Assembly: GCF_000377645.1 (NCBI RefSeq)
Contig: NZ_KB898485.1
Coordinates: forward strand, 1 to 64,000
From: Thiomonas sp. FB-6
GTDB taxonomy: Bacteria; Pseudomonadota; Gammaproteobacteria; Burkholderiales; Burkholderiaceae_C
Length of the DNA stretch: 64,000 nucleotides
Reading direction: 5' to 3'
The translations under genes were made by a program, and so were the position numbers. Below the pieces are notes generated by a model that saw nothing but the letters and a program-made list of their open reading frames with translations, did not search any database and was not told the origin of the DNA. Positions 18,445-62,973 of the stretch are shown piece after piece. Every line of letters begins with the position of its first letter. The first letter of the stretch is position 1.

Positions 18445-18554
18445 ACTTTCCGGCGCGACAGCCCCCGCGGCCGGGCCGTGCCCGCCAGCGGGTGGAGCCC
18501 ATCCGCGGCGGCCTCGCACCCCTGCCGGTCCGCCCCTATCCGAGGAGATCCACG

Positions 18555-18932
18555 ATGCAAACCCGACGCCTGTCCAGCCAACTCGTGGCCGCGCTGCTCA
18601 GCGCCGGCATGCTCGCGCTGCCCCCGGTGGCCAAGGCCGACCTGATCGGCACCCAGCAGATCGCCAGCCAGGCCAGCGGCCACGGCGCGGCCGACATCGC
18701 GCACGACCGCGCCATGGTCGAGCAGTTCCTCGCCCGCTCCGACGTGCGCCACCGCATGGAGCAGATGGGCGTGAGCGCGGGGCTGACCCAGCAGCGCGTG
18801 GCCGCGCTCAGCGACTCCGAGGTGGCCAGCCTGGCCACGCGCATCCAGTCGATGCCCGCCGCCGGCACGCTGGGCTTCCAGGAGACCGTGATCATCCTGC
18901 TGGTGGCCATTCTCGTGGTCATCGCCATTTGA
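18555..18932 (+). CDS. PA2779-family small membrane/secreted protein
   Basis: 125 residues. A signal-like N-terminus (MQTRRLSSQLVAALLSAGML...AKAD) is followed by a helical, soluble middle (HDRAMVEQFLARSDVRHRME, LTQQRVAALSDSEVASLATR) and a single C-terminal membrane helix (VIILLVAILVVIAI). This is the architecture of the PA2779 family, which is regularly paired with a PA2778-type cysteine peptidase, as here. A good ribosome site (GAGGAGATCCACG) precedes the ATG. The stop overlaps the next start (TGATG). Function unknown. Confidence 0.87.
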   Translation: MQTRRLSSQLVAALLSAGMLALPPVAKADLIGTQQIASQASGHGAADIAHDRAMVEQFLARSDVRHRMEQMGVSAGLTQQRVAALSDSEVASLATRIQSMPAAGTLGFQETVIILLVAILVVIAI

Positions 18933-19954
18933 TGGCAGCCCCCAGGGCCGGGCTGCGCCCGACCCGCCTCCCGAGGGGGGCGAGAAGCCCCGGGGCGGCC
19001 TTGCGCACGGCCGCCGCGCTCGCGCTGGCCGCCGCGCTGGGTGGCTGCGCCTTGCCGATTTCCTCCGGCCCGCCGCAGGTCCGCGACGGCCAGCTGCTGC
19101 AACGCCCGGCCGGCCTGCCCGATCAGGCCCGGGTGAGCGGGGTGCCCTTCTACCCGGACGACACCAACGCTTGCGGCCCCGCCTCGCTGGCGGAGGTGCT
19201 GCGCTTCGCCGGCGTCGACACCGACGCCGATCGCCTGAAACCGCAGCTCCTCACCCCGGCGCTGGACGGCACGCTGCAATACGACATGCTCGGCGCGACC
19301 CGCCGCGCCGGACGCGTGGCCTACGTGATCCGCCCCGAGCTGGGCGAACTGTTCGAGAACGTGGCGCAGGGGCGCCCGGTGGTGGTGCTGCAGCGCCTGG
19401 GAATTCCCGGCAACATCTGGCATTTCGCGGTGGTCGTGGGCTATGACCTGCGCCATGACAGCGTCACGCTGCGGTCGAGCACCGCGCGCGCGCTGGTCCT
19501 GTCCGTCGGCCAGTTCGACGCCACCTGGGCCGGCGGCGGCCGCTGGGCCTTCGTGGCGCTGCGCCCCGGCGAATTCCCCGCCCAGGTGCAGCCGCTGCGC
19601 TATCTGCAGGCGGTGGCGCCGATGGAAGGCGTGGCGCCCGAGGCGGCGCGCCGGGCCTACCGCGACGCGCTGGCCCGCTGGCCCGATTCCTGGGTGGCGA
19701 TGATGGGCCTGGGCAACCTGGCCTACGCGCGCAAGGACTATGCGCAGGCCGCGGCGCGCTTCGCGCAGGCGGCAAGCGCCCATCCGAACGACGGGGATCC
19801 GCTGAACAATCTGGCCCAGGCCTTGCTGGCAGCAGGCGACCTGCAGGGCGCTCGCAGCGCGGTGGAGCGGGCGGTCGCCGTCGGCAAGCCCAACCCGCGG
19901 GTCTACGCGAAAACCCGCGAGCAGATCCTGTCCGCCGCATCCTCCGCGCACTGA
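18932..19954 (+). CDS. PA2778-family cysteine peptidase lipoprotein with TPR tail
   Basis: 340 residues from ATG 18932. A lipobox-like LGG|C39 ends a hydrophobic stretch. A C39-like papain fold follows with Cys81 in DTNACGPASLAEVL and a later NIWHFAVVVGYD segment holding the His. The C-terminal ~120 residues form TPR-like helices (GNLAYARKDYAQAAARFAQA, DPLNNLAQALLAAGDLQGA). The first 23 codons coincide with a dispersed GC-rich repeat (18945-19004). An in-frame TTG at 19001 would give a cleaner lipoprotein signal (MRTAAALALAAALGGC), so the start is uncertain. It is paired with the PA2779-type gene. Confidence 0.85.
   Translation: MAAPRAGLRPTRLPRGARSPGAALRTAAALALAAALGGCALPISSGPPQVRDGQLLQRPAGLPDQARVSGVPFYPDDTNACGPASLAEVLRFAGVDTDADRLKPQLLTPALDGTLQYDMLGATRRAGRVAYVIRPELGELFENVAQGRPVVVLQRLGIPGNIWHFAVVVGYDLRHDSVTLRSSTARALVLSVGQFDATWAGGGRWAFVALRPGEFPAQVQPLRYLQAVAPMEGVAPEAARRAYRDALARWPDSWVAMMGLGNLAYARKDYAQAAARFAQAASAHPNDGDPLNNLAQALLAAGDLQGARSAVERAVAVGKPNPRVYAKTREQILSAASSAH
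18945..19004. repeat. Inverted copy of the 13346-13405 repeat, overlapping the PA2778-like gene start
   Basis: The reverse complement reads GGCCGCCCCGGGG... GGGCGCAGCCCGGCCCTGG, matching the element at 13346-13405 over most of its length. It begins 13 bp after the PA2779-like stop codon and codes for the Arg/Pro/Gly-rich residues 5-24 of the annotated peptidase. Confidence 0.6.
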
Positions 19955-29404: not shown

Positions 29405-30529
<1,125 letters not shown>

Positions 30530-30622
30530 CGGGCTGGAAAGGAATCGGCACGCGCAAGCAGGCGGGCCCACGACGACATCCTACGCAATCCGCGGGCGCC
30601 GGCGCCGGGCCGCGCCTCCGGT

Positions 30623-37191: not shown

Positions 37192-38799
37192 TCAGGGCAG
37201 GAGCTTGAGGTAGCTTTGCTGCAGCGCGTTCGCCTGCGCCAGGGTCGAGATGCCGGCCTGTTGCAGGATCTGGAACTTCGACAGCTGGGTGGTGGCGGAA
37301 GCGATGTTCGCGTCCTGCACCACCGACTGTGCCGACTGCAGGTTGGTCGCCGCGGTCTGCGCGTTGCTGACCGAGGCCTGCACCCGCTGCTGCACCGCAC
37401 CCAGCGCGCCGCCCTGCGCGTTCAGCGAATTGATGGCCTGGTCCAGGATCGCGATGGCATGGTTGGCGCCGGCCACCGTGCTGACGTCCACGCTGGCCAC
37501 CTGCGAGCCGCCCGAACCGGACGACAGCGTCGCCGCGGCGCTGCTGAAGCCGATGCCGGAAGCGTTGCCGATCGCGTACGAGTTGTTCGACTCGAACTGC
37601 ACCACGCCCTGCACCAGCAGGCTGCCGGTGCCGCTGGTCAGCGCGCCGCCCACGGACGTCTCCGACTGGCTGCCGTCGGTGTTGACCGTGTTGGCCACGA
37701 CGTTCAGCGAAGCCGTCGAACCCGAGGCCAGGCCCGAGGCCGCGCTACCGCTGCTGGCCTGGATGACGATGTTCTGTCCCTGGCTCTGGGTCAGCACGAT
37801 CTCCTGCGTGCCGCCGACCACCTGGGTGTCCGCGGACACTCCGGTGGTGGCGGCCTGGTTGTTGATCGCCGAGACCAGCGAGCTCAGGTCGTAGTTGCCC
37901 GAGGTGCCGGTGACGGTCGCGGAGATGTTCACCGCGTTGGTCTGCGTGCCCGAGGTGCCGTTGCTCAGCGAGAAACTGATGCTGCCCGAGGCGGCGACCG
38001 TGAAGGCCACGCTGGTGTAGGCCTGCGCGGTCACGCCGGTCTGCGAGGACACCGCGTTGACGCTGCTGGCGATCGTGGCGGCGGACTCGTCCTTGCTGGA
38101 GATGGACACCGCGGCGTTGCCGACGGAGCCGGAAACCCCCAGGGTGCCGATGCTGAAGTTGCCCGCGCCGCCTGCGCCCGCGGAGCCGGAGGTGATCGTG
38201 AAGGCGCCGCCGCCCAGGTAGCCGTCCACCGAGTAGGCACCCGAGGTCGTGTACACGGCGCCCGAGGTGGTGGTCGTGTAGTTGCCCAGCGCGCTGGTCT
38301 GCGCGTTGCCCACCGACACGTTGATGATCTGGTTGGAGTTCGCGCCGACCTGGAACTGCGAGCCGGCGAAGGTGCCGTCCAGCAGGTTCTGGCCGTTGAA
38401 CTGGGTCTGCGTGGCGATGGTCTGCACCTGCGCCAGCAGCTGGGTGACCACGCTTTGCAGGGACTGACGATCCTGCGTGGTGTTGGAGCCGTTGGCCGAC
38501 TGCACCGCGATGGTGCGGATCTGTTGCAGCAGGTTGGTTTCGTTTTGCAGCGCGCCGGTGGCGGTCTGCACCAGGGACACCGCCTGGTTGCCGTTGGAGA
38601 CGGCCTGGTTCAGACCGTTGATCTGGGTCTGGAAGCGTTGCGCGATCGAGTAGCCGGCGGGGTTGTCGGCGGGGCCGTTGATCTGCTTGCCCGTGGACAG
38701 CTGCTGGATGTAGGTGCTGAGACTGCTGGTGGTGTTGCCCAACGCGTTCAGCGTGTTGAGCGCATTGACGTTGGTGTTGATGATGCCGGAAATGGCCAT
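37192..38799 (-). CDS. fliC: Flagellin
   Basis: 535 residues. The N-terminal D0/D1 part (MAISGIINTNVNALNTLNAL, YIQQLSTGKQINGPADNPAG) and C-terminal D1/D0 part (AATNLQSAQSVVQDANIASA, ...LQQSYLKLLP) are conserved. The middle ~300 residues are Ser/Thr/Gly-rich and variable, with many possible O-glycosylation sites. In the TLR5-contact segment the usual LQRIRELAVQ reads LLQQIRTIAVQ. It is preceded by a sigma-28-like promoter and a leader with two hairpins. Ribosome site CAGGAG, 7 nt before ATG. Confidence 0.95.
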   Translation of the reverse strand: MAISGIINTNVNALNTLNALGNTTSSLSTYIQQLSTGKQINGPADNPAGYSIAQRFQTQINGLNQAVSNGNQAVSLVQTATGALQNETNLLQQIRTIAVQSANGSNTTQDRQSLQSVVTQLLAQVQTIATQTQFNGQNLLDGTFAGSQFQVGANSNQIINVSVGNAQTSALGNYTTTTSGAVYTTSGAYSVDGYLGGGAFTITSGSAGAGGAGNFSIGTLGVSGSVGNAAVSISSKDESAATIASSVNAVSSQTGVTAQAYTSVAFTVAASGSISFSLSNGTSGTQTNAVNISATVTGTSGNYDLSSLVSAINNQAATTGVSADTQVVGGTQEIVLTQSQGQNIVIQASSGSAASGLASGSTASLNVVANTVNTDGSQSETSVGGALTSGTGSLLVQGVVQFESNNSYAIGNASGIGFSSAAATLSSGSGGSQVASVDVSTVAGANHAIAILDQAINSLNAQGGALGAVQQRVQASVSNAQTAATNLQSAQSVVQDANIASATTQLSKFQILQQAGISTLAQANALQQSYLKLLP

Positions 38800-38947: not shown

Positions 38948-38985
38948 AATTCTTGTTTTATTGGAATATTTCGTTCCGTTATTAA
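38948..38985. other. A/T-rich block upstream of the fliC promoter
   Basis: About 38 bp with very low GC (GAATTCTTGTTTTATTGGAA, then TATTTCGTTCCGTTATTAAA) inside very GC-rich DNA. It includes the inverted repeat GGAA-N7-TTCC and ends at the stop codon of the MCP-like gene. It lies ~55-95 bp upstream of the fliC -35, where an UP-like or bending-protein site could act. Confidence 0.5.
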
Positions 38986-39995
38986 AGCTCCAGCAGCGCC
39001 TGCTCCACCACCGCGCGCAGATCCCGCGAGGCCGCCGCCTGGGCCTCGCCCAGCAGGGGCTCCAGCGCGGCGCGCCCCTGCACCAGGGCCTCGCGCACCT
39101 GGGCCACCTCCCTGGGCAACTGGCGCAGCGCCTGCTCCACCGGCTGCAGCAGGTCCGCGGCCCGGGTGCCGGCCGCATCCGGCGACGGCAGCGCCTCCAG
39201 CAGCGCGGTGGCCTGCACGCACAGCGGCTCCAGATCCTGCACCACCGTGTCCAGCGCATCCCCGTGCACGCCGGGAATGAGCTCCAGGCGCTCCAGGGTC
39301 AGGCGGAAGTTCAGGCTCAGCAACTGCAGGGATTCGGCCAGGCGCCGCGCGCGCTGCAGGAATTCCCGCTCGACCTCGCCGCCCAGCGCCCCCAGCGCCT
39401 CGTGCACCTGGCCCAGGCAGGCCTGCACCTGCTCCACCCCGTTTTCGAGCCGGCGGGCCTGTTCGCCGGCGCCCTCCAGCGCCTGGGCGGACTGGCGCAA
39501 GGCCTGCAGCCGCGCCTGTCCGTCGCGCGCGGACGGCAGCGTGGGCACCAGGCGCCTCCACTCCTGTTGCACCTGCTGCAGCGAGTCCTGGGCGCTGCGC
39601 GCCGCCTGCAGCGAGCGCTCGCCCTGCTCGCGCAGGCCATCCTCGGCCTGCTGCGCGCGCAGCGCCAGGCGCTCGCGCTCCAGGCCGGCCCGGCGCATGG
39701 CCAGGCGCAGGTCGTCGAGCAGGCCGCGCCACTCCGGCGCAGCGTCGGCCACCGCCTCGCCACGCAGCACCGCGCGCACCGCCACGCGCAGCCGGGCCTG
39801 CTCGATGCGCAGGCTCAGGCTCAGGAACAGCGCGGCCAGCAGCAGCAGCACGCCGCCTCCGAGCACGGCGGGAGCCGTGGGCAAGGCGCCGCCCGCATGC
39901 GGCGCCAGCAGGCCCTGCAGCCACCAGATGCCGGGCAGCCACGCGCAGCACAGCAGGCACATCGCGACGATGGCTCGGGTCGGTGTGATTCTCAC
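38982..39995 (-). CDS. Membrane coiled-coil protein with a degenerate chemoreceptor (MCP) tip
   Basis: 337 residues. Two membrane helices (about 9-28 and 43-62) flank only ~14 periplasmic residues, so there is no sensor domain. A long cytoplasmic coiled coil follows. Residues ~219-262 (AESLQLLSLNFRLTLERLEL, then IPGVHGDALDTVVQDLEPLC) keep the spacing of the MCP hairpin tip (Q-NLLALNAAIEAAR...GFAVVA-EVR-LA) although many contact residues differ. This suggests an eroded or specialised chemoreceptor that could still bind the CheW-like partners encoded upstream. GTG start 39995 overlaps the preceding CheW-like stop (GTGA). No assignment to a known family by eye; MCP relation is inference. Confidence 0.65.
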   Translation of the reverse strand: MRITPTRAIVAMCLLCCAWLPGIWWLQGLLAPHAGGALPTAPAVLGGGVLLLLAALFLSLSLRIEQARLRVAVRAVLRGEAVADAAPEWRGLLDDLRLAMRRAGLERERLALRAQQAEDGLREQGERSLQAARSAQDSLQQVQQEWRRLVPTLPSARDGQARLQALRQSAQALEGAGEQARRLENGVEQVQACLGQVHEALGALGGEVEREFLQRARRLAESLQLLSLNFRLTLERLELIPGVHGDALDTVVQDLEPLCVQATALLEALPSPDAAGTRAADLLQPVEQALRQLPREVAQVREALVQGRAALEPLLGEAQAAASRDLRAVVEQALLEL

Positions 39996-40651
39996 GCTCG
40001 GAACTCCGGTGGCTCGGCGTCTGCGGAGCGCGCGCCGTCGGGCGCTTCCAGACAGCCCTTGCACAAGGTGGGCACATGCAGCACGGGACAGACTTCCCCG
40101 CCGGACTCCGCGGGCAGGGGCAACAGCGCCCGCACCGCGTTCCACGGCGCGGGCAGGCCGGGCTGCACCTCGATCAGGCGTTCGGGCTGCTCCTGGTGGA
40201 CCCCGCGCACCTGATCCACCAGCAAGGCCCACAGACGCGCGTCATCCTGGACCAGCAGCACGCGCGCGCCCTCGCGGCCCAGGCTCGGGCGCCGCCCCAT
40301 CGCGGCACCGCAGTCCAGCACCGGCAGCACGCGCTGCTGCCAGGCGATGACCCCGGGCCACACGCGGTGCCGCCGCCCGGGCAGCTGCGCCAGGCTGGCG
40401 GCCAGCGCGACCTGGCGCAGCTGCCGGCTGTCCACCGCGCAGGCCTGGCCGTCGACCTCGAACAACATCCAGCTGCCGGCCAGCGCCGGGCCGAAGCCCA
40501 TGGGCGGCAGCGCCTGCCCGCCGGGGCCTGCAGGCTGCGCACGCCCCGCCGGAGCAGCTGCGCGCACGGCCTGCCAGGAGGCGGGCGCCTCCAGCGGCGC
40601 GGCCTCCGACGGAATCTTGACGCTTTGGTCGCGCTGCATGGGGTCTTTCAT
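39992..40651 (-). CDS. CheW-like protein
   Basis: 219 residues. After ~55 variable residues, a CheW fold is recognisable: GSWMLFEVDGQACAVDSRQL, PGVIAWQQRVLPVLDCGAAM, then ARVLLVQDDARLWALLVDQV with RGVH, and PWNAVRALLPL...CPVLHVPTL. CheW couples receptors to CheA in chemosensory arrays. A Cys-rich end (CPVLHVPTLCKGC) is unusual. It is coupled by ATGA to the HPt/CheW fusion upstream and by GTGA to the MCP-like gene downstream. No CheA with a kinase domain is in the window. Confidence 0.78.
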   Translation of the reverse strand: MKDPMQRDQSVKIPSEAAPLEAPASWQAVRAAAPAGRAQPAGPGGQALPPMGFGPALAGSWMLFEVDGQACAVDSRQLRQVALAASLAQLPGRRHRVWPGVIAWQQRVLPVLDCGAAMGRRPSLGREGARVLLVQDDARLWALLVDQVRGVHQEQPERLIEVQPGLPAPWNAVRALLPLPAESGGEVCPVLHVPTLCKGCLEAPDGARSADAEPPEFRA

Positions 40652-42342
40652 GATCCCCCCTGTTCCGGCGCAGCGCATGCATCGGGCTCGCGCGTGGCCT
40701 GAGCGCGCGCATGCACCCAGGCGACAAAGCCCGGGTCGAGCAGCAGCGCCAGCTCGCAAGCCCCGGGCTGCAGCCCGGGGACCTGGGCCGGCTCGCTCGA
40801 CACCGCCGCGGCGGCCACGCCCAGCGGCCCGCCGAGCACGGCGGGAAGTCCCCAGAAATGCAGCGCCTGCTGCTGCAGCACCTGCTGCACGCGCAGCGCG
40901 TAGCAGACCTGCGCGTCGCGCAGCAGCAGGTATTCGTCGGGGGCCTCCGGCTCCTGCACACCCCAGCATGCCTCCAGGGCCACCTCGGGCAGCGCGCCAT
41001 GCTCGGTCAGCACCAGCGTGTCGCCCCGCGGCAGGTGCAACAGACGCGCCGGCGCCTGGACCTGGCCGATCACCTGGTCGGCCGGCAGCGCCAGGGTCCA
41101 GGACCCCAGCCGTGCCAGGCGCACCTGCAGCACGCCGTGCCAGTTCGACGCCGCGGCCGCGGACGGCGTGTCCTCCAGCGCAATCGGCGCCTGCGCGCCT
41201 GACGCCCGGCCGGCGGCCGCGAACGCGGCGGCCTGTCTGGCAAGAGCCTGCGCGCTTTGCTCCCGCTCTTCGCGCAGCGCCTGCGCGACCTGGGAGGCCG
41301 TCTCCGCTGCCGCCTCCGAGACCGCCTCCGAGACCGCCTGGGACACCGCCTGGGACACCGCCTGGGAGGCGGCCTGGGAGGCCGCCTCCGAAGCCGCCTC
41401 CGAAGCTGCCTGCGACGCCGCTCCCCATGCCGCTCGGGAGGCCGCCTCGCAAGCCGCCTGGGACGCCAGCGAGCGCGCCTGCTCGGAGGCCGCGGCCAGC
41501 GCCTGGGACAGGGTGTCGCGCAAGCCCTCCCAGCCATGCGCCTGGCCGCGCAACAGCTCGTTGGTCTGCGCCAGGCTCTCCCGCAAGGGCTCCACGGCCT
41601 GCCGCAGGCACTGCGCCACCTCCTGCGCGTCCCAGGCCGGCGCGAGCCCGAGCGCCCGAGCTTCGAGCGGCGGCTGCGCTTCGGGCAACGGTTCCGCTTC
41701 GAACAACGACTCCGGCTCCGCCTCGGGTACCGGGCCCGCCTCGGACAACGGCCCTGCTTCGGAGAACGCCTCCGCCTCGGGCACCGGCTCCGCCTCGGGC
41801 ACCGGCTCCGCCCCGGGCTCCAGCTCCGCCAAGGGCACGGGCTGCGCGTCGACGACCCCCTGCGTGCCTCCCGGGGGCTCGGTCGTCTGCACGGCCGCGG
41901 GCCCGGCCTCGCCTGGACCTGCCTGCTCCGGTGCCGGTGCCGCTGCCGGTGCCGCCACCAGGTTCAGGCGCGAACGGGCGGCGCTGACGCCGATGCCCCG
42001 CGCGGGGGGCGCCTCGCGCAGGAAATCCTCCAGCACCTCGTGCAGCCCACGGACCAGGCGTTGCACGCGGCCGCACTCGGAGCCGGCCTGCGCGCCCAGG
42101 CGGGGCAATTGCACCAGCAACTCGCCCTCGAGTTCGCGGCAGGCGCTGGACAGGGGGTCCAGGCCGAGGAACTCGGCTCCGATGCGAATGCCCCGCAGGG
42201 CCTCGGCGGCGGCTCCCAGCGCCTGCTGATCGCGCCGGTCGCAGGCTTCCCGCACCGCGTCGTCGAACAGCGCCAGGAACTCGCGCGCATCGAGCCCGAA
42301 GGCCGCGCGCAGTTCACTGGGACTGGCTTGGGCGAGGTTCAT
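40648..42342 (-). CDS. HPt-like / low-complexity / CheW-like fusion protein without kinase core
   Basis: 564 residues with an architecture I do not know from a named family. Residues ~10-110 are a helical HPt-like domain; the phospho-His motif (H-x-L-K-G) reads E47-A-L-R-G, so the acceptor His is replaced by Glu. Residues ~170-228 are Pro/Glu/Ala repeats (EAEPVPEAE type). Residues ~285-355 are Ala-rich tetrapeptide repeats (AASQ, AVSQ, AASE) followed by charged helix. Residues ~400-560 resemble CheW (NWHGVLQVRLARLGSWTLAL, PADQVIGQVQAPARLLHLPR, ...YALRVQQVLQQQALHFWGLP, LALLLDPGFV). It looks like CheA reduced to P1-like and P5-like ends, with the dimerisation and ATPase domains absent. Coupled to the CheW-like gene by ATGA; 36 bp behind the GGDEF gene. 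Confidence 0.75.
   Translation of the reverse strand: MNLAQASPSELRAAFGLDAREFLALFDDAVREACDRRDQQALGAAAEALRGIRIGAEFLGLDPLSSACRELEGELLVQLPRLGAQAGSECGRVQRLVRGLHEVLEDFLREAPPARGIGVSAARSRLNLVAAPAAAPAPEQAGPGEAGPAAVQTTEPPGGTQGVVDAQPVPLAELEPGAEPVPEAEPVPEAEAFSEAGPLSEAGPVPEAEPESLFEAEPLPEAQPPLEARALGLAPAWDAQEVAQCLRQAVEPLRESLAQTNELLRGQAHGWEGLRDTLSQALAAASEQARSLASQAACEAASRAAWGAASQAASEAASEAASQAASQAVSQAVSQAVSEAVSEAAAETASQVAQALREEREQSAQALARQAAAFAAAGRASGAQAPIALEDTPSAAAASNWHGVLQVRLARLGSWTLALPADQVIGQVQAPARLLHLPRGDTLVLTEHGALPEVALEACWGVQEPEAPDEYLLLRDAQVCYALRVQQVLQQQALHFWGLPAVLGGPLGVAAAAVSSEPAQVPGLQPGACELALLLDPGFVAWVHARAQATREPDACAAPEQGGS
41293..41448. repeat. 12-bp-period coding repeat in the HPt/CheW fusion
   Basis: About a dozen imperfect 12-bp units (GCCTCCGAGACC / GCCTGGGACACC types) encode Ala-x-Ser-x tetrapeptides at residues ~299-350. 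Neighbouring units are identical or nearly so, suggesting recent expansion. A second repeat block (~41668-41817) encodes Pro-Glu-Ala-rich units. Confidence 0.8.
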
Positions 42343-42378
42343 GCCAGGAGTTCCGGACGGGCGAGGATCCCCACGGCC

Positions 42379-43296
42379 TCAGACGGCGACGGGCCGGCAG
42401 GCGCCCGCGCGCTTGGCGGCGTACAGGCGCGAGTCGGCCTCGCCCAGGGTCTGGCCCAGGGATTTGTGCGCATCCAGCGCTGCCACGCCCGCCGAGAAGG
42501 CCGCGAACAGGTCCCGCCCGCCGGCCTGAACCAGCGGCTTCTCGGCGATGCCGAGGCGCAGGCGCTCGATCACGCCGCGCGCCTCCTGCTCGCTGGCCTG
42601 CGGCAGGCACAGCACGAATTCGTCGCCACCGTAGCGAAACGCTGCGTCGTAGCTGCGCAGACGCGCGCTCAGCGCGCCGGCGAAGGCCGCCAGATAGCGG
42701 TCACCGACCAGATGCCCGAACTCGTCGTTGACCGGCTTGAACTGGTCCAGGTCGAGCAGCACGACGCAGCAGTGATCGCCCTGGCGGCGCAGGCGGCTGA
42801 GTTCGGCCTGCAGGCGCTGCAGCAAGGCACGCCGGCCCGGCAGGCCGGTCAAGGGGTCCAGCCAGGCCTGCTGCGCCGCCCAGTCGGATTCCAGGTCCGC
42901 CACGCGCATGAGCAGGCCCAGGCCTTCGCGCACCAGCGTGCGCGCCGGGATCGCCCCCGCGCTCATGCGCTGCAGGGCGTGCGCCTGTTGCAGCGCGTCG
43001 GCCAGCGCGGGCTGCAGCGACGAGTCGTGGCCGGCCGCCTGCAGCGCCTGGTCCAGCCCCTGCGGGACCTGCGCGGGCAAGGCCGCCGGCCGGGCCATCG
43101 CGTTCGCCTCCAGCACGCCTTCGAGCCAGTGCGACAGGCCGCGGCGCACGTGGCGCAACACGCCCGAAGGCAGTTGCAGCTCGGGCGCGCGATCCGCCGG
43201 GCCGGCCGGCCGCGCCTGCGCCGCCACCCGGCCCGGCGTCCCGGAACCGCCCACCGGGCCCGTGCCCTGAATCTCGTCGAATGCCCACGCCCCCAT
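42379..43296 (-). CDS. Diguanylate cyclase (GGDEF) at the head of the CheW-like operon
   Basis: 305 residues from ATG 43296. A helical N-terminal ~145 residues of unknown type (VLRHVRRGLSHWLEGVLEAN) precede an intact GGDEF domain: DPLTGLPGRRALLQRL, LLDLDQFKPVNDEFGH with the metal Asp, and RYGGDEFVLC (GGDEF 223-227). An inhibitory I-site is present (R214-S-Y-D217, five residues before GGDEF). The enzyme should make c-di-GMP from two GTP. The wording LTGLPGRR is reminiscent of E. coli DgcZ. A TTG start at 43356 is excluded because it lies upstream of the sigma-54 promoter at 43330-43345. GGAGGG precedes the ATG. Confidence 0.9.
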   Translation of the reverse strand: MGAWAFDEIQGTGPVGGSGTPGRVAAQARPAGPADRAPELQLPSGVLRHVRRGLSHWLEGVLEANAMARPAALPAQVPQGLDQALQAAGHDSSLQPALADALQQAHALQRMSAGAIPARTLVREGLGLLMRVADLESDWAAQQAWLDPLTGLPGRRALLQRLQAELSRLRRQGDHCCVVLLDLDQFKPVNDEFGHLVGDRYLAAFAGALSARLRSYDAAFRYGGDEFVLCLPQASEQEARGVIERLRLGIAEKPLVQAGGRDLFAAFSAGVAALDAHKSLGQTLGEADSRLYAAKRAGACRPVAV

Positions 43297-43329: not shown

Positions 43330-43345
43330 AGCAAGCCTGATGCCA
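43330..43345 (-). promoter_or_regulatory. Sigma-54 promoter for the diguanylate cyclase / CheW-like operon
   Basis: Minus strand TGGCATCAGGCTTGCT matches TGGCACG-N4-TTGCW at 10 of 12 defined bases with exact GG/GC spacing. Start near 43319 gives a ~22-nt leader. A weaker overlapping candidate lies at 43352-43367. Confidence 0.8.
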
Positions 43346-43485: not shown

Positions 43486-44220
43486 TCAGCGCAACAGCGC
43501 CGCGACCACGTCGCCCCGCGCGTCGACCACGCCGCTGACCACCTTGCCCGACTGGGCGTTGCGCACCAGCACGGTCTGCCCCTGGCTGCCGTCCTGCAGC
43601 GCGATGCCCAGGGCCACCAGGCGCACTCCGTCGCCTTCGGCGATCAGGGACACCGCCTGGCCGTAATGGATCAGCCGCGGCCCGGAGAGCATGGATTCGG
43701 TGAGGCTCTGGCCCGCGGCCACGCCGAAGCGCAGCACCCGGCCCTCGGCCTGCGACTCGTCCTGCAGCGCCCCCGGCGGCAAGCCGGCGCGGTCGCGCTG
43801 CAGCAGCTGCAGGTCCGCGGGCCCCAGGGTGTGCCCGGGGGAGATCGCATGCGCGGCTACCACCACCTGCTGCGGCCAGTCCACGTCGACCTGCAGGTAC
43901 ACGGACCAGCTGTGCGGCGCCTCGCAGCGCAGCTGCACGGTCTGCGGCCCGTAGGGGCTGGAGTTGCCGAAGGGCAGCGTCAGCAGATGCTGCGGCGCGC
44001 AAGCCGGGAAGCGCGCGGCCACCTCGCCGGCGTGCACGCGCACGTGCTGTGCCGCCGCCCCGGCGGGCAGATGGGCGCGCACGAACTGCTCGGCCGCATC
44101 GCTCATCGTCCGCGGGGATTCCCAGCGCGCCGCGGCGGGCGCGGCTGACGCTGCGGCGCCCGCCACGACGGCGAGCATCACGAGGGCACCGCCGGCCCTG
44201 CGAACCACGCTCGATCCCAT
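43486..44220 (-). CDS. flgA: Flagellar P-ring assembly chaperone FlgA
   Basis: 244 residues from ATG 44220. Signal peptide (MGSSVVRRAGGALVMLAVVA...ASAAPA), then a variable N-terminal domain and the SAF/ChapFlgA domain (VVVAAHAISPGHTLGPADLQ, RVLRFGVAAGQSLTESMLSG, QTVLVRNAQSGKVVSGVVDA). FlgA works in the periplasm to help FlgI form the P ring. It is divergent from flgBCDEFGHIJ and has its own sigma-54 promoter. Confidence 0.93.
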   Translation of the reverse strand: MGSSVVRRAGGALVMLAVVAGAAASAAPAAARWESPRTMSDAAEQFVRAHLPAGAAAQHVRVHAGEVAARFPACAPQHLLTLPFGNSSPYGPQTVQLRCEAPHSWSVYLQVDVDWPQQVVVAAHAISPGHTLGPADLQLLQRDRAGLPPGALQDESQAEGRVLRFGVAAGQSLTESMLSGPRLIHYGQAVSLIAEGDGVRLVALGIALQDGSQGQTVLVRNAQSGKVVSGVVDARGDVVAALLR

Positions 44221-44291
44221 CACCCTGCTCCGCCTCCCTGTTCATCGCTCCGTTCGGGGAGCGCGAGCGCCGCGCTCCTGACCGCGAGCCA

Positions 44292-56876: not shown

Positions 56877-57739
56877 AGCTGCTGATGTTCGGCGCCCGAG
56901 GACGCCTGGGCACCCTCTGCCGCGAAGTGCTCGCGGGCCTGGATCCGGACGCCATCTGCCTGGAGCACCAGCGCGACGGGTCGTTCCTGCGCCGCGTGGG
57001 AGGCGGGCAGGCGATGTCCCGGGTGGAGCGGAGCGAACTCGCCGCGCAGGCGGACTCCGAGCCCTGGGTATTCGTGGACGCCTCGGTCGACCACCGCGGC
57101 ACCGAGGCCCTGCAGCGGCACGAGGCGGACAAGGCCGAGCTGTGCGAGCAACTGGACCGCGCCTCGCTGCTGGGGCGCGCCATCGGTTTCAGCTCCGGCA
57201 TCGCCCACCTGCCGGCGCAGCGCATCCGCGCCGAGCATCCGCACATGCTGGCCTACCGCGAGACCAAGCTGCGCCAGATGGAGCTGTACGAGCGCCTGCG
57301 CTGCCCGGGCTTCCTGCCCTCGATCTTCACCCTCGTGGGGCCGATCACCCACGCCCGGCAGGCCGCGGCCTGGGCGCGCATCCTGGCCGAACGCGTGCGG
57401 GCGCAGGAGCAGACCGTGATCCACGACCCCTTCAGCCGCCGCTTCTGGGTGGACGAGGCGACGGTAGCGCAAGCCCTGTCGGGCTTCCTGCGCGAGCCGC
57501 ACCCGGCCGCGGTGCGGGGCCCGCTGGTCGACGGCTGCTTCTGCCTGGACGACGTGGCGCGCCTGCCGCTGGCCGCGGGCCATCCCGCCCTGCGCTACCG
57601 CGTCGGCGTGTCCGACTCGTGGTGCGTGGGCGATTACGTCTGCGACCACGATTTCCTCCCCGGGCGCGAGCTCGCCGCCTCCCTCGACGCGGCGCTCGCC
57701 CCGCAGACCAGCCCCCCGCCCCATGCCCACCACCTCTGA
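56873..57739 (+). CDS. SDR-type NAD(P)-binding protein of the sugar operon
   Basis: 288 residues. GTG start (56873) overlaps the pseB stop as GTGA. N-terminal VKLLMFGARGRLGTLCREVL is a Rossmann loop (G-x-x-G-x-x-G) and AYRETKLRQMELYERLRCPG contains the YxxxK pattern of SDR enzymes. Between them VFVDASVDHRGTEALQRHEA is unusual. It is probably a sugar-nucleotide reductase or epimerase, but the exact reaction is not evident. Overlaps the next gene by 17 bp. Confidence 0.7.
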   Translation: MKLLMFGARGRLGTLCREVLAGLDPDAICLEHQRDGSFLRRVGGGQAMSRVERSELAAQADSEPWVFVDASVDHRGTEALQRHEADKAELCEQLDRASLLGRAIGFSSGIAHLPAQRIRAEHPHMLAYRETKLRQMELYERLRCPGFLPSIFTLVGPITHARQAAAWARILAERVRAQEQTVIHDPFSRRFWVDEATVAQALSGFLREPHPAAVRGPLVDGCFCLDDVARLPLAAGHPALRYRVGVSDSWCVGDYVCDHDFLPGRELAASLDAALAPQTSPPPHAHHL

Positions 57740-59540
57740 ATTGATCGTCGAACGCCTGGCCGACCTGGGCGTCACGCATTCCTTCGGCGTGGTCGGCGGG
57801 GCGATCATGTTCATCACCGACGCGCTGCGCAAGTGCACCCGCCTGCGCCACGTGTTCACGCATCACGAGCAGGCCGCCGCGATCGCCGCCGAAGCCTTCG
57901 GCAAGATGGAGAACCGGCCCGCGCTGGTGTTCGCCACCGCCGGGCCGGGGGTCACCAACCTCATCACCGGCCTGGCCGACGCCTACATGGATTCGGTGCC
58001 CATGGTGCTGCTGGTGGGCGACGTGCGCAGCACCATCCGCGCCGACTTCGGGCGCCAGCGCTACAGCGCTCCGCAGGAGGTCGACCAGGGCCGCCTGCTG
58101 TCGCCCCTGGTGAAGGAATACCTGTACGTCGAGCCCGGCATGTCCGCCGCGCAGATCATCGCCGCGGTGGACCGCCTGGTGCGCGTCGCCACGCAGGGAC
58201 GCCCGGGGCCCGTGTGCATCGCCCTGCCGCTGGACGCGCAGGGCGTGCAGCACGCGGCCGGGGACCTGCAGGCGCCCGCGCCGGCGAGCCCCGCGCCCGA
58301 GGGCCGTGACCTGGCACCGCGGCTGGCGCCCGTGCTGGAAGCGCTGCGCCGGGCGCGGCGTCCCCTGCTGGTGCTGGGCGCTGGCATCCGCCTGGGGGGC
58401 GCGCGCGAGGCCGTGCGCGAACTCGTGCGCACCGCCGGCCTGCCCTACTGCGTGACCATCGGCGCGGTGGACCTGCAGGACGCCTCCGATCCCCTGTCGG
58501 TGGGCTGCGTCGGCCCCACCTCGCAACGCGCGGCCAACCTGGCCATGCAGGCCGCCGATTGCATCGTCGTGCTGGGCTCCAGCGTCGACCAGAGCGTCAC
58601 CGGATTCAACGTCGAGGCCTGGACCCGGGGACGCGAGATCTACATGGTCAACGTGGATCCCGGCGAGTTCCTGCGCTTCCAGGCTTCCTCGCTGCACCCC
58701 GTCGAGGCCGACGCCCTGGGAGCCTGCCGCGCGCTGCTCGAGGGCCTGCGCGAAGCCCTGGACATCGAGGAGTGGCGCCGCGTGCTGCCGCGCCTGAAGG
58801 CCCTGCTCGGCCCGGATCACGAGCGCGGCCTGCGCACCACCGTGGGCGAAGGCTTCGCCTCGGCCTACGACATCACGCGGCGCCTGTCGCAGTGCCTGCC
58901 GCCGGCCAGCACCGTGGTGCTGGGCATCTCGCTGGACGCGCACTCCGTGTTCAATGCCTTCGAGGTGGGGCGCGACCAGCGCATCCTGGTCAGCCGCAAT
59001 CTCGGCCCCATGGGGTGGGACCTGCCGGCCGCGATCGGCGCCGCGCACGCGCGCGACCCCGCGGGCGGGCTGTACCTGCTCACCGGCGACGGCAGCCTGA
59101 TGCTGAACCTGCAGGAACTCGCGGTGGTGGCGGGCCAGAAGCTCCCGCTGTGCATCGTGGTGTTCAACAACGACGGTTACGTGTCCATCCGCACCACCCA
59201 GCGCAACTTCTTCGCCGAGTCGGTGTTCGGCTGCGACTCCGCCTCCGGGCTGCACATGCCGCAGTTGCACAAGGTCGCTCCGGCCTTCGGCCTGGACTAC
59301 CACCGCGTGGACCGCCCCGAACAGGTGGACGCCCTCGTCGATCTGCACCGGCGCTCGCCGGCGCCTCGCCTGGTGGAGTGCATGCTGGACCCGGGCCAGC
59401 TGCGCGAGCCCCGGCTGGTGTCGCGCGTGGAGAACGGGCGCTTCATCTCGCCCACGCTGGCCGACATGACGCCCAGGCTCGACGCCGCCACGCGCGCGCG
59501 CATCGTCGAGTGGCTGCCCTCGCTGGCCGAAAGTCTCTGA
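57723..59540 (+). CDS. ThDP-dependent acetolactate-synthase-like enzyme
   Basis: 605 residues with all three domains of the family. The ThDP-activating Glu49 is in FTHHEQAAAIAAEAFGK. AHAS-type ATAGPGVTNLITGLADAYMD follows. The ThDP/Mg motif is GDGSLMLNLQEL...FNNDGY (GDG ~455, NN 482-483). Housekeeping AHAS is an unlikely role because no small subunit is near and the operon is for sugars. YerE of Yersinia, an AHAS-related enzyme that adds a two-carbon branch from pyruvate to a CDP-keto-sugar, is a plausible analogue, especially as a CDP-glucose enzyme gene lies downstream. That function is inference. Confidence 0.8.
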   Translation: MPTTSELIVERLADLGVTHSFGVVGGAIMFITDALRKCTRLRHVFTHHEQAAAIAAEAFGKMENRPALVFATAGPGVTNLITGLADAYMDSVPMVLLVGDVRSTIRADFGRQRYSAPQEVDQGRLLSPLVKEYLYVEPGMSAAQIIAAVDRLVRVATQGRPGPVCIALPLDAQGVQHAAGDLQAPAPASPAPEGRDLAPRLAPVLEALRRARRPLLVLGAGIRLGGAREAVRELVRTAGLPYCVTIGAVDLQDASDPLSVGCVGPTSQRAANLAMQAADCIVVLGSSVDQSVTGFNVEAWTRGREIYMVNVDPGEFLRFQASSLHPVEADALGACRALLEGLREALDIEEWRRVLPRLKALLGPDHERGLRTTVGEGFASAYDITRRLSQCLPPASTVVLGISLDAHSVFNAFEVGRDQRILVSRNLGPMGWDLPAAIGAAHARDPAGGLYLLTGDGSLMLNLQELAVVAGQKLPLCIVVFNNDGYVSIRTTQRNFFAESVFGCDSASGLHMPQLHKVAPAFGLDYHRVDRPEQVDALVDLHRRSPAPRLVECMLDPGQLREPRLVSRVENGRFISPTLADMTPRLDAATRARIVEWLPSLAESL

Positions 59541-59549
59541 GCCGCCGTC

Positions 59550-60407
59550 ATGCGCATTCTCGTGTTCGGCGCCTCGGGACTGCTGGGCTCCTTCCTGCTT
59601 CCGCATCTCGCGCGCTCCGGCCACGAGGTGATCGCCTTTCGCCGCCAGCCCGGCGCGGCGGGCGACGCGCGCGGCCTGGAGGCCCAGTTCGCCCATGCCA
59701 TCGACGAGGCCAGGCCGCAGGGCGTGGTCAACCTCATCGCCTTGACGCAGGTGGACGCCTGCGAGGACGACCTGGCGCTGGCCAGCCTGCTCAACGCGCA
59801 GGTTCCCGAGATGCTCAGCCGCCTGCTCGGGCGCGTCCCCGGCAGCTTCCTGCTGCACGTTTCCACCGACCAGCTCTACGGCACCGCCGGCCCGCACCCG
59901 GAGGAGGATTTCCATCCCCTCAACGTGTACGCGCTGACCAAGTACCACGGCGAGTTTCCGGTGCTGGAGCGCGGCGGCTGCGTGCTGCGCACCAATTTCT
60001 TCGGGCGCAGCCCCACGCCGGCGCGCGCCAGCCTGTCCGACTGGATCCTGGGCGAGGTGGCCAAGGGCGCCACGGTGCCGGTGTTCGACGACGTGCTGTT
60101 CTCGCCCCTGGGCCTGCACACCCTGTCGCGCACCATCGAGGCGCTGCTGCTGCGGCGCGTGGCCGGGCTGTTCAACGCGGGCTCGGCGCAGCAAGGCCTG
60201 TCCAAGGCCGATTTCGCCGCGCTGCTGTGCCGGCACCTGGGCCTGAGCGGCGCGCGCCTGGAGCCGCGCAGCATCGAGCGGCTCGCGCTGCGCGCGCCGC
60301 GCCCCAGGGACATGCGCATGCGATCGGCGCGCCTGGCCGACGCCCTTGCCTGGCAGGTTCCCGACATCCACGAGGAGATCGAGCATGAATACCCCGCCGC
60401 CCATTGA
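59550..60407 (+). CDS. RmlD-like sugar-nucleotide reductase / NAD-dependent epimerase
   Basis: 285 residues. N-terminal MRILVFGASGLLGSFLLPHL is the NAD(P) loop. LNLIALTQVDACEDD-type and LHVSTDQLYGTAGPHPEEDF, LNVYALTKYHGE (YxxxK) follow the dTDP-4-dehydrorhamnose reductase pattern. It would reduce a 4-keto-6-deoxy sugar nucleotide. 9 bp after the ThDP enzyme gene; overlaps the next gene by 23 bp. Confidence 0.8.
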   Translation: MRILVFGASGLLGSFLLPHLARSGHEVIAFRRQPGAAGDARGLEAQFAHAIDEARPQGVVNLIALTQVDACEDDLALASLLNAQVPEMLSRLLGRVPGSFLLHVSTDQLYGTAGPHPEEDFHPLNVYALTKYHGEFPVLERGGCVLRTNFFGRSPTPARASLSDWILGEVAKGATVPVFDDVLFSPLGLHTLSRTIEALLLRRVAGLFNAGSAQQGLSKADFAALLCRHLGLSGARLEPRSIERLALRAPRPRDMRMRSARLADALAWQVPDIHEEIEHEYPAAH

Positions 60408-61479
60408 CTATCGGCGCAGTTTTCGCATCGGGTCCCGCGAGGTGGGGGAAGGCTCCCCCGTGTACTTCATCGCCGACATCGCGGCCAACCACGACGGCGA
60501 CCTGGAGCGCGCGAAGGACCTGATCCGGCTGGCCGCCGAGGCCGGCGCGGACGCCGCGAAGTTCCAGCATTTCGCGGCGTCCACGATCATCAGCGACTTC
60601 GAGTTCGCCGCCATGCGCTCCGGCCTGAGCCACCAGGCCACGTGGAAAAAGAGCGTGTACCAGGTGTACGAGGAAGCGTCGTTGAACCTGGAGTGGACGC
60701 GCGAGCTCAAGGCCGCCTGCGAGGCCTGCGGCATCGAGTTCATGACCAGCCCCTATGCCTTCGACCTGGTCGATGCCGTGGACGGCTTTCTCAACGCCTA
60801 CAAGATCGGCTCGGGCGACATCACCTGGACGGCCATGCTCGAGTACATCGCCGGCAAGCGCAAGCCGGTGTTCCTGGCCACCGGGGCGTCGACCCTGGAC
60901 GAGGTGGCCCAGGCGGTGGAGGCGATCGCGCGCATTCACCCGGAGGTGTGCGTGATGCAATGCAACACCAACTACACCGGCAGCATCGAGAACTTCGACC
61001 ATCTGCATCTGCGCGTGCTGGCCACGTACCGCGAGATGTTCCCCGGCGCGGTGCTCGGCCTGAGCGACCACACGCCGGGCCACGCCGCGGTGCTGGGCGC
61101 GGTGGCGCTGGGCGCCAAGGCCGTCGAGAAACACTTCACCGACGACAACGGGCGCGAGGGCCCCGACCATCGCTTCTCCATGACCCCGCGCGACTGGAGG
61201 GACATGGTCGAGCGCACGCGCGAACTGGAACGCGCGCTGGGCGCCGGCATCAAGCGCGTCGAGCCCAACGAACGCCAGACCGTGGTGATCCAGCGCCGCT
61301 CGCTGTGCGCGGCGCAGGCGCTGGAGCCGGGACACACCCTGCGCGAACAGGACCTGGTGGCCCTGCGCCCCTGCCCCGCCGACGCCTTCACGCCCGCGCA
61401 GGCGGCGCAGCTCGTGGGCCGCTTGGTGGCCCAGCCGGTGCAGGCCGGCGAAGCGCTGCGCCAGCGCCACCTGCGATGA
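60385..61479 (+). CDS. neuB: NeuB-family nonulosonate synthase (sialic/pseudaminic/legionaminic acid synthase)
   Basis: 364 residues from ATG 60385 (ribosome site GGAG). PVYFIADIAANHDGDLERAK, KIGSGDITWTAMLEYIAGKR, FLATGASTLDEVAQAV, and LGLSDHTPGHAAVLGAVALG-AKAVEKHFTDDNGREGPDH are typical of NeuB/PseI/LegI. A C-terminal SAF/antifreeze-like domain follows (RRSLCAAQALEPGHTLREQD). It condenses phosphoenolpyruvate with a six-carbon amino sugar. With PseB nearby, pseudaminic acid is possible, but PseC, PseF, PseG and PseH are not in the window. Confidence 0.9.
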   Translation: MNTPPPIDYRRSFRIGSREVGEGSPVYFIADIAANHDGDLERAKDLIRLAAEAGADAAKFQHFAASTIISDFEFAAMRSGLSHQATWKKSVYQVYEEASLNLEWTRELKAACEACGIEFMTSPYAFDLVDAVDGFLNAYKIGSGDITWTAMLEYIAGKRKPVFLATGASTLDEVAQAVEAIARIHPEVCVMQCNTNYTGSIENFDHLHLRVLATYREMFPGAVLGLSDHTPGHAAVLGAVALGAKAVEKHFTDDNGREGPDHRFSMTPRDWRDMVERTRELERALGAGIKRVEPNERQTVVIQRRSLCAAQALEPGHTLREQDLVALRPCPADAFTPAQAAQLVGRLVAQPVQAGEALRQRHLR

Positions 61480-62147
61480 GCCAGGCGCGGGCGCGGCCCG
61501 AGGTGGCCCTGGTGATTCCCGCATTCAACGAGGCCGCGACCATCGCCGAGGTGGTGGGCTGGGCGCGGGAATTCGGGCAGGTGATCGTGGTCGACGACGC
61601 CTCGAGCGACGCCACCGCGCAACGCGCCGAGCAGGCCGGCGCCCAGGTGCTGCGCGCACCGGCCAACCGCGGCTACGAGGCTTCGCTGAGCGCCGGGTTC
61701 GAGGCCGCACGGACGCTGGGGGCGCGCTATTGCGTGACCCTGGACGCCGACGGCCAGCATCCGCGCGAGGCGGTGGCCGCGGTCTGCGAAGGCCTGCTCG
61801 GGGGCGCCGACGTGGTGGTCGGCGTGCGCGACCGGCGCCAGCGCCTGGCCGAGCACGTCGCTGCGGTGTGCGGGCGCCTGCTCTGGGACATCTCCGACCC
61901 CTTCTCCGGGCTCAAGGGCTACCAGCTCGGCGCCTTCGATCCCAAACAACCCTTTGACAGCCACCGCATGGTCGGCTGCGAATTGCTGGCACGCTGCCTG
62001 CGGCGCCGCGGCCGCGTCGTCCAGGTTCCGATCCGCACACGCGAGCGTCTCGACGCCCCGCGCTTCGGCTCCTCGCTGCGCGCGAACCTGCGCCTGCTGC
62101 GCGCGCTGGCCTGGATGCTGCTGTTGTACGCTGGAATCCCCGCATGA
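61476..62147 (+). CDS. Glycosyltransferase family 2 (DPM1-like)
   Basis: 223 residues. [40 protein letters not shown], and [19 protein letters not shown] (the DxD-type DAD) are GT2 signatures. [20 protein letters not shown] resembles polyprenyl-phosphate sugar transferases. The C-terminus has one hydrophobic patch ([17 protein letters not shown]). ATG overlaps the neuB stop (ATGA). Confidence 0.87.
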
Positions 62148-62199
62148 CCCACGCGCGCCGCTGCCCGGCCGGCAAGGCCGCGACTCCAGGAGTTCCCCG

Positions 62200-62973
62200 A
62201 TGAAAGCAGTGATACTGGCCGGCGGCCTGGGCACCCGGCTGAGCGAGGAAACCCAGTTGCGCCCCAAGCCGATGGTGGAGATCGGGGGCAAGCCGATCCT
62301 CTGGCACATCATGAAGTCCTATTCCGCCCACGGCATCCACGACTTCGTGATCTGCTGCGGCTATAAGGGCTACGTGATCAAGGAATATTTCGCCAATTAT
62401 TTCCTGCACATGTCCGACGTTACGCTGGACATGCGCAGCAACTCCATGCACGTGCACAACCGGCGCGCCGAACCCTGGCGCGTCACCCTGCTCGACACGG
62501 GCGAGGACTCCATGACCGGCGGGCGCTTGCTGCGCGCGGCCGAGCACCTGGCGGACCAGTCCGACTTCTGTTTCACCTACGGCGACGGCCTCAGCGACGT
62601 GGACATCGGTGCCACCATCGCCTTCCACCGCGCGCACGGCAAGGCCGCCACGCTGACCGCCACCTACCCGCCCGGCCGCTTCGGCGCGCTGGAACTGGAG
62701 GGCCAGCGGGTGAGCAGTTTCACGGAAAAGCCCAAGGGCGACGGCGGCACCATCAACGGCGGCTTTTTCGTGCTCAGCCCGCGCGTGTTCGACTACATCG
62801 CCGGCGACGCCACGGCCTGGGAGCAGGAACCCCTGGCCGGGCTGGCGCGCGACGGCGAACTCATGGCGTACCGGCACGAAGGCTTCTGGCACCCGATGGA
62901 CACCCTGCGCGACAAGAACCTGCTGGAAGACCTGTGGCGCAGCGGCAAGGCTCCCTGGAAATCCTGGGACTGA
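62200..62973 (+). CDS. rfbF: Glucose-1-phosphate cytidylyltransferase
   Basis: 257 residues, the exact family size. [60 protein letters not shown], and later [20 protein letters not shown]-type ([20 protein letters not shown]) are diagnostic for RfbF/DdhA. It makes CDP-glucose, precursor of 3,6-dideoxyhexoses and of branched sugars such as yersiniose. Ribosome site AGGAG before ATG. The next step, CDP-glucose 4,6-dehydratase, is not in the window and may lie beyond the right edge. Confidence 0.94.

Follow-up and report, generated by a model that had tools for sequence, protein, structure and literature searches.

The window analysed here, a stretch of 64,000 nucleotides (nt) from Thiomonas sp. 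FB-6 (contig NZ_KB898485.1, positions 1 to 64,000), carries a four-gene operon encoding a GGDEF diguanylate cyclase, a CheA-like protein of 564 amino acids (aa) without its kinase, a diverged CheW and a membrane-anchored, rod-like coiled-coil protein of 337 aa. We tentatively read it as a scaffold of chemosensory type that works without a kinase, belongs to the flagellar regulon and positions or tunes the synthesis of cyclic di-GMP (c-di-GMP), and we give this reading a probability of about 0.44. The first-pass annotation had proposed a kinase-less chemosensory-type scaffold joined to a diguanylate cyclase in one operon, and the searches bore this out: the N-box of the kinase was found in none of the 13 aligned members of the 564-aa family, a Pfam scan of the four open reading frames (ORFs) detected no receiver (REC) domain and hence no response regulator, and the cyclase matched GGDEF at 4e-40. 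The gene content, the domain identities (the rod excepted), the missing kinase and histidine, the promoter motif and the conservation of the operon are established in the following sections.

The 564-aa protein is a CheA without its kinase

Scanned as single sequences, the 564-aa and 337-aa proteins gave no significant Pfam match. When the family was aligned, Pfam Hpt matched all 16 N-termini, the window's included (E ≤ 1; best 9e-5); the window's own match had an E-value of 0.0084 and 16.8 bits, under the curated cut-off of 24.6 bits. A profile of this P1-like part, searched against 177,635 PDB sequences, returned as its two best matches the same CheA P1 sequence (E 0.009 and 0.022). It also matched the HPt domains of a ChpA-like (1.8e-6) and a CheA-like (2.8e-6) protein from two other genera, both labels being assigned from open-frame length and motifs, and more weakly the P1 domains of two CheA proteins of the genome itself. 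The column of the phospho-accepting histidine falls on residue 50 (51 in one alignment). Residue 50 is Arg in 15 of the 16 members and Gly in the remaining one; residue 51 is Gly throughout (16/16).

The AlphaFold2 model, computed from a 13-row alignment, has a mean predicted local distance difference test (pLDDT) score of 69.6, with values mostly of 75–95 in the two end domains. It begins with a four-helix bundle; a Pro/Glu-rich stretch modelled with low confidence and a helix of 124 residues lead to an SH3-type domain. In Foldseek searches the best natural match of the N-terminal bundle was CheA P1 (1tqg; template modelling score 0.80 by target, E 0.005), and the C-terminal domain matched CheA and CheW at E 7e-10 to 1e-4, ranks 1–8 all being CheA chains. 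The only PDB matches of the C-terminal profile were two E. coli CheA entries (E 0.002 and 0.004). Compared by hhalign, the family aligned with the operon's own CheW at P 0.003, with a probability of 10% and a plausible register, and with the genome's CheW/CheV proteins at P 0.52. No Pfam kinase match was obtained, and the N-box absent from all 13 members is present in 3/3 CheA/ChpA proteins of the genome.

The first-pass annotation had named this protein an HPt/CheW fusion. The AlphaFold2 and Foldseek matches to CheA bear out its expectation of structural similarity to HPt- and CheW-type folds; the label itself was replaced after the profile and fold searches, as the C-terminal domain is nearer to CheA-P5 than to CheW. 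The most fitting description is that of a CheA without its kinase: a P1 domain with Arg for His, a variable linker and a P5-like domain. Full lengths in the family range from 433 to 911 aa (13 members). The segment encoding the predicted 124-residue helix (41257-41628) contains Ala/Ser-rich repeats, which by eye are missing in T. delicata and its nearest relatives.

The CheW protein and the cyclase

The 219-aa protein, anticipated as CheW-like, is a CheW by its Pfam match (4.9e-16) and by profile matches to CheW entries of the PDB. The receptor-groove positions described for T. maritima CheW are L14, V27, I30 and V33 (PMC5706961). Mapped through the CheW PDB alignment, the corresponding columns of the operon CheWs read M/L/V; S (L and T in two members); L/V; and V/I, so that three of the four positions remain hydrophobic.

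The I-site RxxD is present in all 15 cyclase members and the GGDEF motif in 14. Pfam detected no REC domain in the cyclase. Its N-terminus of about 140 aa (42865-43296) has a conserved R..R..L..WL motif and matched no Pfam family at E ≤ 1.

A membrane-anchored coiled coil of 337 aa

Hydropathy analysis of the 337-aa protein revealed two hydrophobic segments separated by a short loop and followed by a coiled coil; because the loop is short, there is no room for a periplasmic sensor domain. The AlphaFold2 model shows helices with a turn at 239-245. Across 18 aligned members N229 and E235 are invariant and R236 nearly so, and the basal members read LLAINARVALER and LQAINAQLALER at the tip-like segment.

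The first three matches of a whole-length profile against the same 177,635 PDB sequences were near-identical entries of one T. maritima methyl-accepting chemotaxis protein (MCP), at E 4e-4 to 5e-4; two MCP entries besides these had E-values of 0.12 and 0.69. The T. maritima matches carry a strong composition bias (domain bias of about 20 bits). In the T. maritima alignment QLLSLNFRLTLER falls on NLLALNAAIEAAR, with the tip in register. Profile–profile comparisons aligned tip on tip in five of six cases. The rod family aligned with the genome's MCPs at P 0.17 (hhalign), and its profile found no credible match among the ORFs of the genome's four own chemosensory stretches. Foldseek was uninformative here, returning generic helical bundles (best E 0.011) and, among the 50 matches listed, a single MCP at rank 36. 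The protein is a membrane-anchored coiled coil with a suggestive, putative likeness to the chemoreceptor tip. On the earlier claim of an eroded MCP tip, the whole-profile MCP match at E 4e-4 and the hhalign alignment with the genome's MCPs speak for it and the tip-directed searches given below against it; the profile–profile comparisons are borderline.

A conserved sigma-54 promoter motif

Upstream of the operon we recognised a sigma-54-type motif, TGGCAY-N5-TTGCT, and then counted it: it lies on the coding strand in 19 of 19 upstream regions (18 of the 20 operon-bearing genomes of the genus, plus G052, a genome of another genus). Where the cyclase is intact the motif starts 48–54 nt ahead of the first ORF (74 nt in G021), and it is retained in the four genomes that have no cyclase. 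The operon motif is the sole exact match in the 64-kb window; one-mismatch matches number 10 against 3.8 expected, a count reached by 1 of 100 shuffles. This conserved motif is newly reported for the operon, and on the best reading the predicted promoter places the operon in the flagellar regulon. A sigma-28-type promoter was considered and dropped, the crude pattern occurring in one of 16 upstream regions (G022). A sigma-54 activator is encoded in the same flagellar cluster as fliF, fliG, fliM and motB (29405-30571); it gave no match to a receiver domain.

Conservation among relatives

The 564-aa and CheW genes, and the CheW and 337-aa genes, are joined by ATGA and GTGA overlaps, and 36 nt separate the cyclase gene from the 564-aa gene. 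Ratios of nonsynonymous to synonymous substitution rates (dN/dS) against close relatives were 0.17–0.27 for the cyclase, 0.12–0.15 for the CheW core, 0.16–0.26 for the 337-aa protein and 0.23–0.34 for the 564-aa protein, where the estimate covers the two end domains and leaves the linker outside. Against the more distant G023 they were 0.25–0.54 (three pieces tested). Judged by these ratios, all four genes are under purifying selection.

A search for CheW proteins in 100 related genomes detected the operon CheW or an ordinary one in 24. The order flgA, cyclase, 564-aa gene, CheW, 337-aa gene, fliC recurs in 18 stretches from relatives, where these are long enough, except in a cyclase-less clade and where a CheA-like part is fused to CheW. 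Conservation of the four genes together, a check named beforehand, was accordingly confirmed, the cyclase-less clade excepted. Since dN/dS against close relatives is 0.12–0.34 and the gene order is conserved, the operon is not a chance arrangement.

The 337-aa profile matched 19 of the 28 Thiomonas genomes, one of them partly. In a twentieth, G026, a contig with flgA and the cyclase runs into the 564-aa gene and breaks off after its first part. This gives 20 operon carriers among the 28 Thiomonas genomes, T. delicata being one of them, to which one genome from a different genus is added. The eight Thiomonas genomes without it also have no strong flgA match (the match in G003 is weak, E 5e-4). 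The idea that the operon tracks flagella was weakened, fliF being present in 24 of the 28 genomes and the operon in 20, with contig ends blurring the absences: in the five fliF-positive genomes without the operon or a strong flgA match, contigs end close to fliF, and for this reason absence there is indistinguishable from missing sequence.

In a family sample of 399 genomes the 337-aa profile matched eight. These fall into 3 of 141 genera, one match being weak (G125; 8.8e-5, 69 positions). In an order sample, likewise of 399 genomes, the P1-like profile matched three proteins, namely that of the window's genome and the ChpA-like and CheA-like proteins mentioned above. Both searches scored the top candidates per genome (4 and up to 11), and distant relatives may be missed.

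The second genus has the P1-like part in one of two genomes. In that genome, G052, the P1-like part and CheW lie within a single open frame of 485 codons. In G020, CheW and the sequence preceding it share one open frame, and the contig overlaps the P1-bearing contig by 110 identical nt. A P5-like domain between the P1-like part and CheW in the fused frames was judged by eye. Because the P1-like part and CheW are fused in G052, and a fusion is indicated in G020, these frames argue that the two work in physical contact. A FlgA tree was not used, since it was poorly resolved and its row G027 was apparently mis-framed.

Genomic setting

The coordinates of the operon and its neighbours are collected in Table 1. 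The flanking genes are ones that we take to be flgA-type and fliC, and the fli and mot genes near the operon (a cluster with fliF, fliG, fliM and motB) were confirmed by family scans.

Table 1. Features of the operon and its surroundings in the 64,000-nt window.
Feature	Coordinates	Strand	Evidence and remarks
GGDEF diguanylate cyclase gene, 305 aa	42379-43296	minus	ORF; Pfam GGDEF 4e-40; N-terminus of ~140 aa, then GGDEF; I-site RSYD; REC domain not found
Kinase-less CheA-like gene, 564 aa	40648-42342	minus	from N- to C-terminus: P1/HPt with Arg50 in place of His; Pro/Glu-rich stretch, then a long helix; CheA-P5-like domain
P1/HPt-like four-helix bundle, residues 1-112 of the 564-aa protein	42007-42342	minus	no phospho-accepting His
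CheA-P5-like SH3-type domain, residues 398-552 of the 564-aa protein	40687-41151	minus	PDB profile and Foldseek
Diverged CheW gene, 219 aa	39992-40651	minus	Pfam CheW 4.9e-16; PDB CheW matches; NLRG replaced by AWQQ
Membrane-anchored coiled-coil gene, 337 aa, GTG start	38982-39995	minus	hydropathy, AlphaFold2, PDB profile; possible eroded chemoreceptor tip
Tip-like segment QLLSLNFRLTLER...DTVVQDLEPLC, residues 205-272 of the 337-aa protein	39180-39383	minus	conserved columns; MCP-tip homology putative
Sigma-54 (-24/-12) promoter motif TGGCATCAGGCTTGCT	43330-43345	minus	upstream of operon; motif match
flgA-type gene (presumed), upstream neighbour	43486-44223	minus	conserved neighbour
Flagellin gene fliC (presumed), downstream neighbour	37192-38799	minus	conserved neighbour
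Sigma-54 activator gene	29405-30571	minus	Pfam Sigma54_activat 1.4e-66, HTH_8 1.6e-11; AAA+ and Fis-type helix-turn-helix

Elsewhere, the genome contains 22 matches to the MCP domain (some are fragments; 21 exceed the cut-off), eight to the CheW domain (two inside CheA-type proteins, on contigs C20 and C1, and one on C40) and three CheA-type proteins with a P3 match, each with the HTxKG motif in an open frame. Since MCP, CheW and CheA-type genes are present elsewhere, ordinary chemosensory systems exist beside the operon. A second chemosensory cluster (G000:C40:700-8000 and 18048-18980) encodes a CheA of 683 aa, MCPs and a CheW protein that ends in a receiver-like tail and looks CheV-like on inspection; the cluster lies on the same contig as the gene for FlhF, which the genome also encodes. 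Downstream of the Thiomonas flagellar locus, a "che islet" with cheW, cheBDR, MCPs and a cyclase/phosphodiesterase has been described, and both its gene content and its place as described there differ from those of the operon (PMC5481541).

Beside the flagellar cluster of the window, region 57723-62973 has NeuB/PseI-like and RmlD-like matches (below curated cut-offs) together with a thiamine pyrophosphate enzyme and a glucose-1-phosphate cytidylyltransferase (over cut-off). It is perhaps a flagellin or surface glycan island.

Comparison with described systems

In the Wsp system, a chemosensory-type operon with c-di-GMP output, the kinase WspE phosphorylates the REC-GGDEF protein WspR. The Thiomonas operon shares the chemosensory-type genes and the link to c-di-GMP, but has no kinase and, by Pfam, no REC domain. 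Two single proteins also serve as precedents for its 564-aa product, FimL of Pseudomonas aeruginosa and ParP of Vibrio; FimL is not known to have a P5, its own CheW or a receptor-like rod, nor to share an operon with its cyclase, and ParP is not known to have an HPt.

FimL is HPt-like, is related to the CheA homologue ChpA and has Gln in place of the phospho-acceptor His; it is polar and required for full output of the cyclase CyaB (PMC3019171). The 564-aa protein likewise has an HPt-like domain related to ChpA/CheA (1.8e-6 and 2.8e-6 in the profile searches) without the histidine, whereas FimL differs in having two HPt-like domains and in its messenger, cyclic AMP. The C-terminal domain of ParP is described as nearer to CheA-P5 than to CheW, joining receptor tips and promoting arrays without CheA (PMC5706961), and by this description it may resemble the C-terminus of the 564-aa protein. 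ParP differs in that its N-terminus binds ParC, that of the 564-aa protein being HPt-like, and in that it acts inside ordinary arrays and has no cyclase.

The pair of 564-aa protein and rod is also reminiscent of CheA3 and TlpC of R. sphaeroides: CheA3 has P1 and P5 without the kinase domain, and TlpC, as described, has a receptor tip without the customary glycine turn (PMC6829392). The 564-aa protein has the same split, P1 and P5 without P4. CheA3 nevertheless keeps its His, has a phosphatase region and belongs to a pathway completed by the kinase CheA4 and CheY6 (PMC6829392), whereas in the Thiomonas operon the His is Arg, kinase and regulator are missing and a GGDEF enzyme is present. No partner CheA lacking P1 was found, all three CheA-type proteins of the genome carrying HTxKG. 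FrzB of Myxococcus, likewise a divergent CheW, acts on arrays without binding CheA; unlike the operon CheW, it serves the Frz system with its own CheA, FrzE (PMC6952110). The phosphodiesterase Pch is a c-di-GMP enzyme that the chemotaxis machinery retains at the flagellated pole; unlike the operon cyclase, it degrades c-di-GMP, and it is described as relying on CheA and its phosphorylation (PMC3861689). By analogy, FimL, ParP, CheA3/TlpC, FrzB and Pch make each step proposed below possible. Among the papers listed by searches of the open literature, in which most subscription journals fell outside coverage, none was by its title and the start of its abstract about a system with the gene set of the operon.

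A model of the operon and its alternatives

For the assembly, the location, the signal and the effect on the cyclase we infer the following. The operon would encode a chemosensory core unit minus its kinase, made up of a membrane-anchored receptor-like rod, CheW and a CheA reduced to P1 and a P5-like domain, and would be expressed from the sigma-54 promoter together with the flagellum. With the help of CheW and P5 the rods would form a small array-like patch, whose place would probably be the flagellated pole, FlhF being encoded in the genome. The cyclase would be drawn to this patch, with either its own conserved N-terminus or the P1-like bundle as the probable contact, and c-di-GMP would be made beside the motor or the export gate, either upon assembly of the patch or in one of two states of it. 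The pseudo-P1 would serve as a docking module rather than as a phosphodonor. An array or platform role near the motor or pole, as suggested in the first-pass annotation, is plausible and is aided by the conserved sigma-54 motif. With confidence somewhat short of even, we extend this to an evolutionary proposal: a chemosensory lineage would have dropped phosphorylation and become a self-assembling, flagellum-regulated platform for allosteric or positional control of c-di-GMP synthesis (of another target in the cyclase-less clade).

Several observations weigh against the proposed c-di-GMP scaffold, and the first of them concern the cyclase. Fourteen of the 20 operon-bearing Thiomonas genomes have it; none was detected in G008 and G017, where contigs end. 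In the other four (G005, G012, G023 and G025) the cyclase is absent, flgA and the 564-aa gene are contiguous, and the scaffold genes and promoter are kept; G023 has a weak cyclase match elsewhere in its genome (0.002). In a tree of 18 rods, which leaves out G008, G015 and G026, these four group as a single clade (support 0.853) that lies within cyclase carriers. An ATG 45–49 nt past the promoter motif opens a short ORF in all four (L035, L036, L039 and L040), and in three of them it starts with MSAA or MSIS, resembling the cyclase starts MGAW or MSA. A single secondary loss of the cyclase is the simplest reading of these sequences. Because this clade lost the cyclase and kept scaffold and promoter, the scaffold is of some use in its absence: c-di-GMP synthesis can be dispensed with and cannot be the scaffold's sole use, a correction to the earlier description of it as the only catalytic output. 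The cyclase orthologue of G014 (L041:10153-11142), moreover, reads GGDEC and is possibly inactive. In CheW, the NLRG position, which reads NLRG, NLRG, NIRG and DLRG in four ordinary CheW domains of the genome, has NLRG in none of the 17 operon members; the window has AWQQ, and two basal members keep RG (FWRG and LWRG). The remaining points concern the rod, where a profile of the tip alone found designed coiled coils first in the PDB and no MCP. MCPsignal was not among the 25/28 Pfam families listed for the 18 members. A hidden Markov model (HMM) of ten MCP tips peaked at the tip in one of 18 members, with a score below zero bits, and in the eight members tested 21 to 354 of 500 shuffles equalled its score. 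Heptad-preserving permutations reached the profile–profile scores in 17/150 and 8/150 cases and free permutations in 2/150 and 3/150, which is borderline.

These results on the rod are what favours taking the 337-aa protein for a plain membrane-anchored coiled-coil landmark that is no relative of chemoreceptors, to whose helix CheW and P5-like domains bind by analogy only. We consider this unlikely: the whole-length profile ranks T. maritima MCP entries first with the tip in register, tips aligned on tips in five of the six profile comparisons, and the basal members read as given above. The main rival is that CheW, the P5-like protein and the rod form no separate array and join the ordinary CheA-driven ones as an adaptor set, much like ParP, CheV or FrzB, tethering them near the flagellum or adding a c-di-GMP branch. 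The genome offers three full CheA-type proteins besides many MCPs and further CheW domains, three of four receptor-groove positions of CheW are hydrophobic, the P5-like domain of ParP is described as integrating into arrays (PMC5706961), and the loss of the cyclase in one clade fits. Against this, the replaced NLRG and a rod tip far from the ordinary MCP tip suggest a private partnership, and the operon itself encodes a receptor-like rod; we regard the adaptor set as rather unlikely.

Two further explanations start from what has been lost. The pseudo-P1, whose P1-like fold carries Arg for the histidine in 15 of 16 members, might compete for the P4 domain of a genuine CheA, of which the genome has intact examples, and damp its autophosphorylation, making the operon a flagellar-stage brake on chemotaxis. 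Such a brake would leave rod, CheW and cyclase unexplained, and we find it very improbable. Loss of the kinase, the His and NLRG, and of the cyclase in one clade, could also mark the decay of a former chemosensory cluster with no present role; given dN/dS below 1 in each piece tested, a promoter motif in 19/19 upstream regions and the retained overlapping frames, we allow decay hardly any chance.

Significance

Chemosensory arrays are usually explained as amplifiers of the CheA kinase. If our reading of the operon is true, the array lattice would be valuable by itself, as a scaffold or switch without kinase, phospho-histidine or response regulator, and Thiomonas would offer a small natural system for asking whether array assembly alone gates an enzyme. 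The operon would link flagellar gene control through sigma-54 to c-di-GMP synthesis, and it may represent a phosphorylation-free way of controlling a flagellum. Thiomonas is known from arsenic-rich mine drainage (PMC5481541), a habitat in which the switch between swimming and biofilm matters.

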